From: Acidobacteriota bacterium
GTDB taxonomy: Bacteria > Acidobacteriota > UBA4820 > DSQY01
Length of the DNA: 45,719 bases
NCBI GenBank assembly: GCA_021813555.1
Contig: JAKAKG010000038.1
Coordinates: 1-45,719, forward strand
Reading direction: 5' to 3'
In this document: positions 25,723-28,340 of the stretch, one piece after another
Layout: each line of letters starts with the position of its first letter
Position numbering within the stretch: the first letter of the stretch is position 1
Made by a program: the position numbers and the translations under genes
Notes under the pieces: model-generated
What the model saw: only the letters and a program-made list of their open reading frames with translations
What the model was told of the DNA's origin: nothing
The model's database searches: none

Positions 25723-26103
25723 ATGTCGAAGAAATTCATCGTGATGGCCCTTTTCGCCTCGGTCCTTTCGCTCTTCACGGCCACGGCCGCGGCGGCGGCG
25801 TGCGCCCACAAGGGCTGTCCCGCCCAAGCGGCCAACAAGCAGGGATGCATGATGCAGGGCAAGGCCTGCCCTCACCAGGCGGAGATGCAAGCCGCCTTCG
25901 CCGCCTTGGAGAAGGATCTTGCGGTCATGGAGAAGGGCGTTCCAGCGGCCGATCAGGCGGCGTTCATGAAAGAGCACCAGGCCAACCTTAAGAAGCTCTT
26001 GGACGCGCGCGCGGCCTGCATGAAGGAGTGCAAGATGATGCAGGGCGGTGCCAAGACGGGCATGAAACCCGCGGCCTCCGCGTCATCCGTACCCAAGGCC
26101 TGA
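25723..26103 (+). CDS. Small secreted Cys/Met-rich protein
   Basis: 126 aa with a signal peptide (MSKKFIVMALFASVLSLFTA, cleaved near AAAAA). The mature part has CAHKGC, QGCMMQGKACPHQ, then after a helix AACMKECKMMQGG. Paired Cys with His and Met suggests binding of a soft metal such as copper, perhaps for periplasmic copper buffering, which would suit an organism with a copper oxidase. This is inference, and I do not recognise the family. AGGAGG precedes the ATG, and a perfect intrinsic terminator follows, so it is a single-gene unit. Confidence 0.75.
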   Translation: MSKKFIVMALFASVLSLFTATAAAAACAHKGCPAQAANKQGCMMQGKACPHQAEMQAAFAALEKDLAVMEKGVPAADQAAFMKEHQANLKKLLDARAACMKECKMMQGGAKTGMKPAASASSVPKA

Positions 26104-26135
26104 TCGGGTCCGAAAAGGACAAGGCGAACCACCGG

Positions 26136-26165
26136 AAGCGGGGAGACATCTCCCCGCTTTTTCCT
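26136..26165 (+). terminator. Rho-independent terminator
   Basis: A perfect 11-bp stem AAGCGGGGAGA (26136-26146) with a CA loop and its complement (26149-26159), running into TTTTT (26158-26162). Confidence 0.92.
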
Positions 26166-26195: not shown

Positions 26196-26225
26196 TTGCG
26201 GGTGCTCCGGGCCAAGCTATATACT
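26196..26225 (+). promoter_or_regulatory. Promoter of the VWA-FHA gene
   Basis: TTGCGG (26196-26201), an 18-nt spacer, then TATACT (26220-26225), followed by GGAGGAGG and the ATG at 26254. Confidence 0.55.
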
Positions 26226-26253
26226 ATCAGCCCGATAGGGAGGAGGTTCCGCC

Positions 26254-27522
26254 ATGCGCGCCCGATGGCTCGTCCTTGGGATGTTGGTGATCTTCCCGCT
26301 GCTGGCCCAGGCCACGCCCACAGCGATCCTCGTGGACACGAGCCGGTCGATTCCTCTGGCCCAGTTTGAAGCCCTCAAGGGGTCCCTGGAGGCGGCGTTG
26401 CCTGATCTTGTCTCCAAAGGCCCCGTGGCCCTTTATGCCTTCAACGACGAACCCGTCAAACTCGTGGACTACACCACGGACCAGGGGGCCCTGCGCGAGG
26501 GAATCCAAAAGCTCGCCGAGGGTGGACGCTTCACCCTCCTGTATGACTGTCTCTTCACGGCCGAGAAAGACATGGCCGCCCAGGGACCCCCGGGGGTCAT
26601 CCTCCTCTTGACTGACGGGCGGGACGAAAACTCGGCCGTCACCCTGGAGGACTTCGCCGCCAGGGCGAGCGAGGCTCACGTGGCGGTGGTATCAGTGGGC
26701 CTGGGGGCTGCCGACGAAAAGTCTCTGCGGCGCCTGGCCGTACTCACGGGCGGACGCTACGCGGGCCTTCTGGGCAAGGGAGACGCCGCGAGCCTCGTAA
26801 GTGCATGGCGGGACACGGAGGCCGCGCTTCCGCCACCGCCGCCTCCCAAGACCGCGGTGATCCAAAAGTCCCAACCGGCCGCCGCCCCCCCGATTCCACC
26901 GCCTCCCGCCGACCATTCGGGACTGTGGATTCTCGCGGTTGTGTTCCTTGCCGGGTTCGCCATCGTGGTGGTGGTCCTGGTGGTTCTTCTGAGACGGACC
27001 AAGCCTCCCGAGGCCCGCGTGTGCGAGACGTGCGGGCGGGCCCTCCAGGCCTGGGAGGCCCAGTGTCCCGATTGCCTCGCCAGCGAGCTCGCCATCACGA
27101 AACCGGGCGTGGACCCTCAGACCCCGGCGGCGCCGCCCCTGCCGGAGATCGATCCCGCGCTCCTGCGGAAGGGCCCGTCCTCGGAGGCTCTTGAACATAC
27201 GCTCGTGCTGGACGAAGTGCCCGTGCTGGTGCTCCGGCGGGGAAACAACCCTCCCCGAATGTTCCAGCTCCCTCCGGGGCAGGTCGTCTCCATCGGCCGC
27301 GACAAGGTGAACACCATCTCCGTGGCCGACCAGACCCTCTCCGCGCAGCACTTCCGCATCGTCCAGAAGGAGGGCAAGTTCTATCTGGTAGACCTCCAAT
27401 CCACCAACGGGACGTATCTGGACAACGCCCGGGTGACCCTCGCCGAGCTGGGCAGCGGAGCCGTTATCCGGGCCGGCCAATGCGAATTTGCCTTCCGCCT
27501 GGAGATGAAAAAGCTGAGCTGA
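26254..27522 (+). CDS. Membrane protein: periplasmic VWA, TM helix, cytoplasmic zinc ribbon and FHA
   Basis: 422 aa. A signal peptide (MRARWLVLGMLVIFPLLAQA) is followed by a von Willebrand A domain (about 22-185) with an intact MIDAS: DTSRS, then LLLTDGRDENS. A Pro-rich stalk leads to a strong membrane helix (about 222-248, LWILAVVFLAGFAIVVVVLV) and a positive RRTK stop. A zinc ribbon follows (CETCGRALQAWEAQCPDC) and then a C-terminal FHA domain (about 325-410: VSIGRDKVNTISVADQTLSA, STNGTYLDN). The expected topology puts the metal-dependent adhesion domain outside and the phosphothreonine reader inside, so it may transmit an envelope signal to a Ser/Thr kinase system. That role is inference. 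It is transcribed alone. Confidence 0.85.
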   Translation: MRARWLVLGMLVIFPLLAQATPTAILVDTSRSIPLAQFEALKGSLEAALPDLVSKGPVALYAFNDEPVKLVDYTTDQGALREGIQKLAEGGRFTLLYDCLFTAEKDMAAQGPPGVILLLTDGRDENSAVTLEDFAARASEAHVAVVSVGLGAADEKSLRRLAVLTGGRYAGLLGKGDAASLVSAWRDTEAALPPPPPPKTAVIQKSQPAAAPPIPPPPADHSGLWILAVVFLAGFAIVVVVLVVLLRRTKPPEARVCETCGRALQAWEAQCPDCLASELAITKPGVDPQTPAAPPLPEIDPALLRKGPSSEALEHTLVLDEVPVLVLRRGNNPPRMFQLPPGQVVSIGRDKVNTISVADQTLSAQHFRIVQKEGKFYLVDLQSTNGTYLDNARVTLAELGSGAVIRAGQCEFAFRLEMKKLS

Positions 27523-27581
27523 TGCCTCCGGAGGCCGGGATGCCGTCCTCTGCTTCTTGTCGGGCAAGCGTGGCTCGGGGC

Positions 27582-28340
27582 CTATTCGGAGGGCGGCGGA
27601 GGAGGGTCGATCTCCTCGATGTGCTTTCGGAGGCGGTGGACCTCCAGGCGGAGGAGCTCGACTTCCCGTTCCTCGTCTTGCAGGATGGATCGCATGAACC
27701 AGCTCGACAGGAGCCCGGCCAGGGTTCCGAATAGGGTGATCCCCGCGGCCATGAGGACGGCGGCCACCAGGCGGCCGGAGAGGGTCACGGGATATTTGTC
27801 CCCGTAGCCCACGGTGCACACGGTCACCCACGCCCACCACACCGCGTCCTGGGGGGTGAGGATGTTGGCGCCCGGTGCGCCCGCTTCCGCCTCCAGGATG
27901 AAGATGGCCGCGAAGCCCGCCACCATCATCGTGGTGAGGAGGGCGGTGGCGAAGACCGCGCGGGCCTTTTTCTTGTAGAGGTGGGACAGGAGGGCGCCCG
28001 CGGAGGGGAAGGCCCACATCTGCCGGGCCACCCAGGCGACGTACACGAGGCGTCCCACGCGAAGGACGTTGTACTGGGGGAGGCTGGCTACCAGGTCGAT
28101 CCATCCCCATCGCAGGAAGGCTTTCTTGGATGGGGCAATCCACAGGCGCACGAAGAAATCCGCGATGAACAGGTAGCAGATGGCGTCGTCATACGTGTCC
28201 AGCAGGGCGCGGGTCGGCTCCGGCAGGGGAAGGAAGTAGTAGGCCAGCAGGGCCGCCATGCCATAGAGGGAAAGGAGTCCGAGGCCCACGTGGACCAGCG
28301 TCAGTTCCTGCGGGTGCTGCCCTTCGCGGTTTCGCGTCAT
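27582..28340 (-). CDS. Voltage-gated-like potassium channel
   Basis: 252 aa. It has about six membrane helices. The region FFVRLWIAPSKKAFLRWGWI with downstream LRVGRLVYVAWVARQ recalls an S4-like voltage sensor with Arg residues. The selectivity filter is TVCTVGYGDKYP in the pore loop. After the last helix a coiled-coil tail (EREVELLRLEVHRLRKHIEE) may tetramerise the channel. No RCK/NAD domain is present. Ends facing the VWA-FHA gene; the start is divergent from asnS. Confidence 0.9.
   Translation of the reverse strand: MTRNREGQHPQELTLVHVGLGLLSLYGMAALLAYYFLPLPEPTRALLDTYDDAICYLFIADFFVRLWIAPSKKAFLRWGWIDLVASLPQYNVLRVGRLVYVAWVARQMWAFPSAGALLSHLYKKKARAVFATALLTTMMVAGFAAIFILEAEAGAPGANILTPQDAVWWAWVTVCTVGYGDKYPVTLSGRLVAAVLMAAGITLFGTLAGLLSSWFMRSILQDEEREVELLRLEVHRLRKHIEEIDPPPPPSE

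Follow-up and report, generated by a model that had tools for sequence, protein, structure and literature searches.

Bacterial FHA proteins are numerous, and few of them have a known ligand. The closest known set of parts to the protein analysed here is the archaeal pair ArnA-ArnB. ArnA is described as a zinc ribbon, a disordered linker and an FHA domain, ArnB as a vWA protein, and their interaction as controlled by threonine phosphorylation (PMC6509490, PMC12852372). An archaeal operon is reported to hold genes for a calcineurin-like phosphatase, a zinc-ribbon-FHA protein and a vWA protein (PMC7016017). Pseudomonas PpkA is described as a kinase with a C-terminal VWA domain (PMC1262709), and accounts of the vWA-MoxR conflict systems place FHA among the C-terminal domains of vWA proteins in a MoxR setting (PMC7159879). 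Self-recognition by FHA domains has also been reported. The FHA of Bdellovibrio DgcB binds its own tail, LEKpTSIV, and L11 (−3), pT14 and V17 (+3) touch the FHA in the crystal (PMC6733907). According to the same report, the phosphothreonine recognised by GarA and OdhI is N-terminal, and the self-tails of all three proteins share hydrophobic residues at −3, +2 and +3, Glu at −2 and Ser at +1 (PMC6733907). In mouse TIFA the ordered structure starts at Glu10, just after Thr9; pThr9 reportedly docks on the FHA of a second dimer and drives the formation of oligomers (PMC7083832). In the openly accessible portions of the literature searched, we found no description of a VWA-transmembrane helix-zinc ribbon-FHA architecture.

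We analysed a gene with this architecture in a stretch of 45,719 nucleotides (the window) from an uncultured member of the Acidobacteriota whose genome comprises 3.3 Mb in 235 contigs. The first-pass annotation had placed the gene correctly, and an open reading frame of 422 codons occupies exactly 26254-27522 (+). From the reading frame, Pfam and the orthologues, the 422-residue product reads as signal peptide, VWA domain, transmembrane helix, zinc ribbon, threonine motif and FHA domain. The VWA domain (residues 23-172; 26320-26769 (+)) scored above the Pfam cut-off (PF00092, E 7.8e-11, 42.9 bits vs 23.8) and carries the MIDAS residues D28, S30, S32, T94 and D121. The FHA domain (profile match at residues 322-417; 27217-27504 (+)), with G348, R349, S363, H366, N385 and G386, was likewise above its cut-off (PF00498, E 1.8e-16, 60.8 bits vs 20.7). 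The double zinc ribbon profile PF12773 scored below threshold (E 0.0057, 17.2 bits vs 27.3); despite this, one CxxC..CxxC ribbon was found at 27022-27075 (+) by Pfam and alignment, and all four of its cysteines are there (C257, C260, C271 and C274). The protein scored below the curated cut-off of the acidobacterial VWA family TIGR03436 (37.8 bits vs 81.25) and missed the NCBIfam equivalog cut-off for OdhI (38.7 of 200 bits).

An AlphaFold2 model built from an 18-row alignment gave confident VWA and FHA domains and a helix at residues 222-248 (mean pLDDT 79.8). When the model was ranked with Foldseek, a GarA chain came top, followed closely by OdhI and further GarA chains. GarA and OdhI were the best solved-structure matches to the FHA domain by both profile and fold. 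The best VWA match was that of ANTXR2, and BatB, ArnB (8s05) and ArnA (5a8i) were matched too. The comparison with the extracellular VWA receptors ANTXR1/2 and with bacterial BatB covered the VWA fold, which they share; we know of no FHA domain in their cytoplasmic parts.

A profile search (E ≤ 1e-30) recovered relatives in 30 of the 396 sampled genomes of the phylum, among them 12 of the 13 from the order of the source genome. Family counts of n = 30 below refer to one protein per genome examined. When 80 relatives were searched at the protein level, the order yielded full-length orthologues from every genome but one (12/13), the exception being G002, which is 67% complete; more distant ones turned up elsewhere. 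A family sequence in the Acidobacteria MAG BP8.bin17 was 91% identical. A chance reading frame was ruled out because orthologues from 92% to 26% identical align along the entire length. Two members have uncertain starts (L017, TTG; L019, GTG). A plasmid search returned 15 records, all rhizobial, matching the VWA part alone (34% of the query).

The five MIDAS residues were invariant in the 18-row alignment, and the MIDAS pattern was kept in 29/30 members; the remaining member, L094, did not match, and inspection by eye indicated loss of the pattern. All six FHA core residues named above were invariant (30/30). The zinc ribbon between VWA and FHA, which the first-pass annotation had described, is present in the window protein but its cysteines were kept in only 24/30 members (L094 judged by eye), so that the ribbon is dispensable in the family. 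In L094 (genome G384) we observed a degenerate MIDAS and no ribbon cysteines together with an intact threonine motif and FHA domain; here a putative cytoplasmic switch outlives the adhesion site.

The N-terminal hydrophobic segment of the window protein ends in AQA. From hydropathy it was read as a signal peptide (residues 1-20; 26254-26313 (+)), and cleavage after AQA was proposed by eye. A proline-rich linker (26827-26916 (+)) leads from the VWA side to a second hydrophobic segment at residues ~222-248 (26917-26997 (+)), assigned as a transmembrane helix from the model and hydropathy. Topology was scored in 29 members. L094 was left out for want of a MIDAS-like match; its transmembrane segment, cysteine loss and threonine come from separate sequence inspection. 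Ahead of the VWA domain, the most hydrophobic stretch of 17 residues had a Kyte-Doolittle mean above 1.6 in 25/29 members and of 1.3-1.6 in the other four. A second hydrophobic segment followed the VWA domain in 29/29, and Lys and Arg were richer on its C-terminal side, also in 29/29. The two hydrophobic segments and the charge bias support the proposal, already made in the first-pass annotation, that the VWA domain is periplasmic and the FHA domain cytoplasmic.

What that annotation had passed over is the most conserved feature of the cytoplasmic linker, a threonine at residue 316 (27199-27201) within the motif L-E-H-T316-L-V-L (27190-27210 (+)), which we propose, from its conservation, as a kinase target and FHA ligand. 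T316 lies 32 residues upstream of the FHA Gly-Arg. It was Thr, never Ser, in 30/30 members, encoded by ACG, ACC or ACA, and its spacing to Gly-Arg was 32 in 29/30 and 31 in one. It was the sole invariant residue between C274 and G348 in the 18-row alignment, and the sole invariant residue of the linker (249-330) in a redundancy-reduced set (18 rows, <60% identity). In the reduced set, residues 313-319 formed the most conserved seven-residue window of the linker (3.02 bits vs 1.78 for 275-312).

The residues around T316 follow the pattern hydrophobic-[D/E]-x-T-x-hydrophobic-hydrophobic. Across the 30 members we counted L25 I3 F1 D1 at −3, E17 D12 S1 at −2, L10 M8 R4 V4 F3 Q1 at +1, V26 T1 A1 L1 M1 at +2 and L25 I2 M2 V1 at +3. 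Thus, −3 was hydrophobic in 29/30, −2 acidic in 29/30, +2 hydrophobic in 29/30 and +3 hydrophobic in 30/30. The strict motif stood at the right place in 28/30, the exceptions being L016 (at −2) and L019 (at −3). Serine at +1, the fifth published feature of self-tails, was seen in 0/30. The family has four of the five published self-recognition features when Asp is counted with Glu at −2. These data suggest that the protein may itself be a kinase substrate, beyond being a reader of phosphothreonine.

Controls on the motif were drawn from other FHA domains and from a protein background. In the family, Thr was found at −32 from Gly-Arg in 26/27 distinct rows and within one residue of that position in 27/27. 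The comparison set was 27 distinct FHA domains from outside the family, each preceded by 45 residues or more. It was taken mostly from the top FHA scores in the phylum rather than at random, and one of its domains had Thr at exactly −32; a further 17 domains with too short an upstream sequence were left out. Under looser tests, 7/27 had Thr at −31 to −33 and 6/27 had T-x-hydrophobic-hydrophobic somewhere in the region. The strict motif occurred 20 times in 106,482 background residues, in 19 of 288 proteins. It was absent from the kinases at five of six fetched kinase loci (L054 gave no kinase frame).

The position of T316 bears on how it might be read. The distance from Thr to the FHA Arg is 33 residues here, compared to 47 in DgcB (T14-R61) and 59 in GarA (T22-R81). 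Both structure models start the first FHA strand at residue 319, three residues after T316, and the residues before the strand, T316 included, had no secondary structure in either. Confidence around T316 was low, with pLDDT below 50 for residues 312-318 in one model and a mean of 52 for 309-318 in the other. The termini of FHA domains lie opposite the binding loops. Given this arrangement and the short residue count, T316 is hard to fit into its own pocket. The short segment leaves it little room to fold back onto the FHA domain of the same chain, so that binding would be in trans, an argument from residue counts and general FHA geometry.

Comparison with the self-reading FHA proteins gave both likenesses and differences. 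LEHTLVL here resembles LEKpTSIV of DgcB as reported, with the shared features at −3, −2, +2 and +3, and the pocket R, S, T and N are conserved. Unlike the window protein, DgcB is an FHA-GGDEF enzyme without a VWA domain, has a Thr-Arg distance longer by 14 residues, and has both Ser at +1 and a second phosphate-contacting Arg, R76, next to S75. The residue positioned as R76 was G, S, A or T in 30/30 members, and therefore the pocket is not identical to that of DgcB. GarA and OdhI, the closest solved FHA matches, are alike in the self-recognised N-terminal phosphothreonine that has been described for them and differ in being metabolic regulators. The reported arrangement of TIFA is similar in geometry, with a Thr directly ahead of the ordered FHA that is read between chains. 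TIFA is an immune adaptor without a VWA domain or membrane span; geometry is what we compare, and homology is claimed for the FHA domain alone.

Three things can be read directly from the protein sequence: the topology signals, a complete MIDAS and conserved core residues of the predicted FHA phosphothreonine pocket. Together they are consistent with a single-pass membrane receptor or adaptor that would hold its VWA domain in the periplasm and its zinc ribbon and FHA domain in the cytoplasm. T316 is the most likely centre of the mechanism. We propose that one of the Ser/Thr kinases of the cell would phosphorylate T316, within the flexible stretch that precedes the opening strand of the FHA domain. 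Phosphorylated T316 would be bound in trans by the FHA domain of another copy, and the receptors would then assemble into a chain or cluster at the membrane, comparable to the assemblies of TIFA in solution. We give this sequence of phosphorylation, binding by another copy and clustering about an even chance of being right. The coupling of clustering to the VWA side would be the least certain step. An envelope ligand might gather the receptors first, or phosphorylation might gather them and raise the avidity of the VWA domains. Signals could cross the membrane inside-out as well as inwards, the direction that the first-pass annotation had favoured. Its suggestion of a Ser/Thr kinase pathway is plausible, as the source genome gave 14 kinase-domain matches above threshold, along with 9 to FHA. 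Ser/Thr kinases were found in 30/30 family genomes, with at least six matches each; this co-occurrence is a weak test because kinases are common in the phylum.

On a bolder and more tentative reading, which we hold to be possible though we lean against it, these proteins would be bacterial integrin-like receptors, in which an outward MIDAS is wired to an inward FHA and phosphorylated T316 of the same protein is read only by neighbouring copies. If so, Ser/Thr kinases would control whether the receptors stand alone or cluster in the membrane, and the change would alter avidity for an envelope ligand. Kinase signalling would then be joined to an integrin-type domain on one chain, and the ArnA/ArnB module set would prove to be split by a membrane. 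Sequence alone would here name a ligand (one threonine), its reader, a between-chain geometry and a testable output, the clustering of an outward adhesion domain.

The strongest alternative to T316 being read by other copies of the same protein keeps the topology and gives the FHA domain a different protein to read, such as a kinase in its activated state or a second FHA protein, while the T316 motif docks the FHA of that partner in a hetero-assembly. The 9 FHA matches of the source genome would supply such partners, and in genome G199 the family gene overlaps, by called starts, an FHA-RDD gene whose product has the similar motifs LEKTELV and IQKTQLL. However, motif and FHA stand on one chain in 30/30 members, and an FHA-RDD neighbour was noticed at a single locus. 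We consider a hetero-assembly unlikely, if well worth keeping in view.

Less probable again is a structural role, in which T316 caps strand one of the FHA domain, with the protein acting as the simple envelope-to-cytoplasm linker that the first-pass annotation had proposed, its VWA domain binding an envelope ligand and its FHA domain bringing phosphoproteins to the membrane. The near-fixed spacing from T316 to the fold could point to a structural function for the threonine where β1 begins, and intact MIDAS and FHA core residues would suit a simple linker. Yet a threonine at this place is rare in other FHA domains (1/27 at −32, 7/27 within one residue), T316 falls in a low-confidence, structureless stretch of both models, and the conservation at −3, −2, +2 and +3 is like that of a ligand. 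A wholly cytoplasmic protein, whose N-terminus exports no VWA domain and which acts like ArnB and ArnA in one chain, agrees with the family profile matching both chains of the archaeal complex 8s05 but seems barely credible given the hydrophobic N-terminal segment that adjoins the VWA domain (above 1.6 in 25/29, 1.3-1.6 in the others) and a strongly hydrophobic second segment with more Lys and Arg C-terminally in 29/29 scored.

The trans-reading receptor that we prefer also departs from the archaeal pair in other ways. ArnA-ArnB of Sulfolobus share the same three modules, and ArnA has the zinc ribbon-linker-FHA order found here. ArnA and ArnB are two separate cytoplasmic proteins, whereas here one chain with two hydrophobic segments would place its VWA domain across the membrane. 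The β-sandwich and helical bundle of ArnB are absent from our model. The phosphothreonine of the archaeal pair is in the vWA protein, whereas the candidate here is beside the FHA domain.

We also assessed the signals around the gene. A ribosome-binding site, GGGAGGAGG (26238-26246 (+)), lies 7 bases before the ATG. The upstream gene ends in a strong intrinsic terminator (26135-26163 (+); −21.3 kcal/mol, z −3.85, followed by TTTTT); the sister species G001 conserves the stem, with four T after it instead of five. A sigma-70 promoter scan upstream of the gene found none at threshold. Below the threshold is a weak promoter-like pair noted by eye, TTGCGG-18-TATACT (26196-26225 (+); 8/12 matches), which is conserved in G001, where the intergenic region is 98% identical. 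No downstream terminator was found, and 27515-27625 folded no better than shuffled sequences (z 0.19). The earlier picture, of a gene flanked by two terminated units and driven by a promoter of its own, is thus half supported: the terminator upstream was found, and neither a promoter at threshold nor a terminator downstream was.

The next gene in the window encodes an ion channel (PF07885; 27582-28340 (−)); it is convergent with the VWA-FHA gene, and 59 bases separate their ends. In both the window and G001, which belong to the same genus, the ion-channel gene sits between the VWA-FHA gene and a tRNA-synthetase gene. A class II tRNA synthetase, AsnRS by our reading, was directly next on the same strand in 8/12 members from the order, with gaps of 9-93 bases in seven of the eight, as measured from called starts, two of which look over-extended. 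It was not seen near the gene in G007 and G008. Outside the order, the neighbour survey covered loci with the family gene called (L047 and L103 were not among them), and no tRNA synthetase was found there within three called genes, as judged by protein starts. We rejected the tRNA synthetase as a conserved operon partner, since it was seen at no surveyed locus outside the order, and the adjacency is taken as neighbourhood rather than function. No neighbour was seen to recur across the phylum among the surveyed loci, and no Ser/Thr kinase was found among the annotated neighbours (Pfam on 10 outside the window and 5 inside).

Several other observations were made at individual loci. At four loci the family gene has an NtrY-type histidine kinase as its divergent neighbour: L044 and L106 (by Pfam), and L098 and L104 (by sequence start). 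An NtrC-type regulator followed the family gene in L044 (Pfam), L098 and L104 (sequence start), and not in L106. In the FHA-RDD protein of G199 (L101:3873-4958), both threonine motifs stand after the FHA domain, as if the motif had been reused. Another FHA protein of the source genome, L058 (G000:C185), has T-V-I-L shortly upstream of its FHA domain, perhaps a second self-ligand. Upstream of the gene, 25723-26103 (+) encodes a protein of 126 residues with a signal-peptide-like start that is rich in Cys and Met and matched no Pfam family at E ≤ 1; its composition suggests that it could be a metal-binding periplasmic protein.
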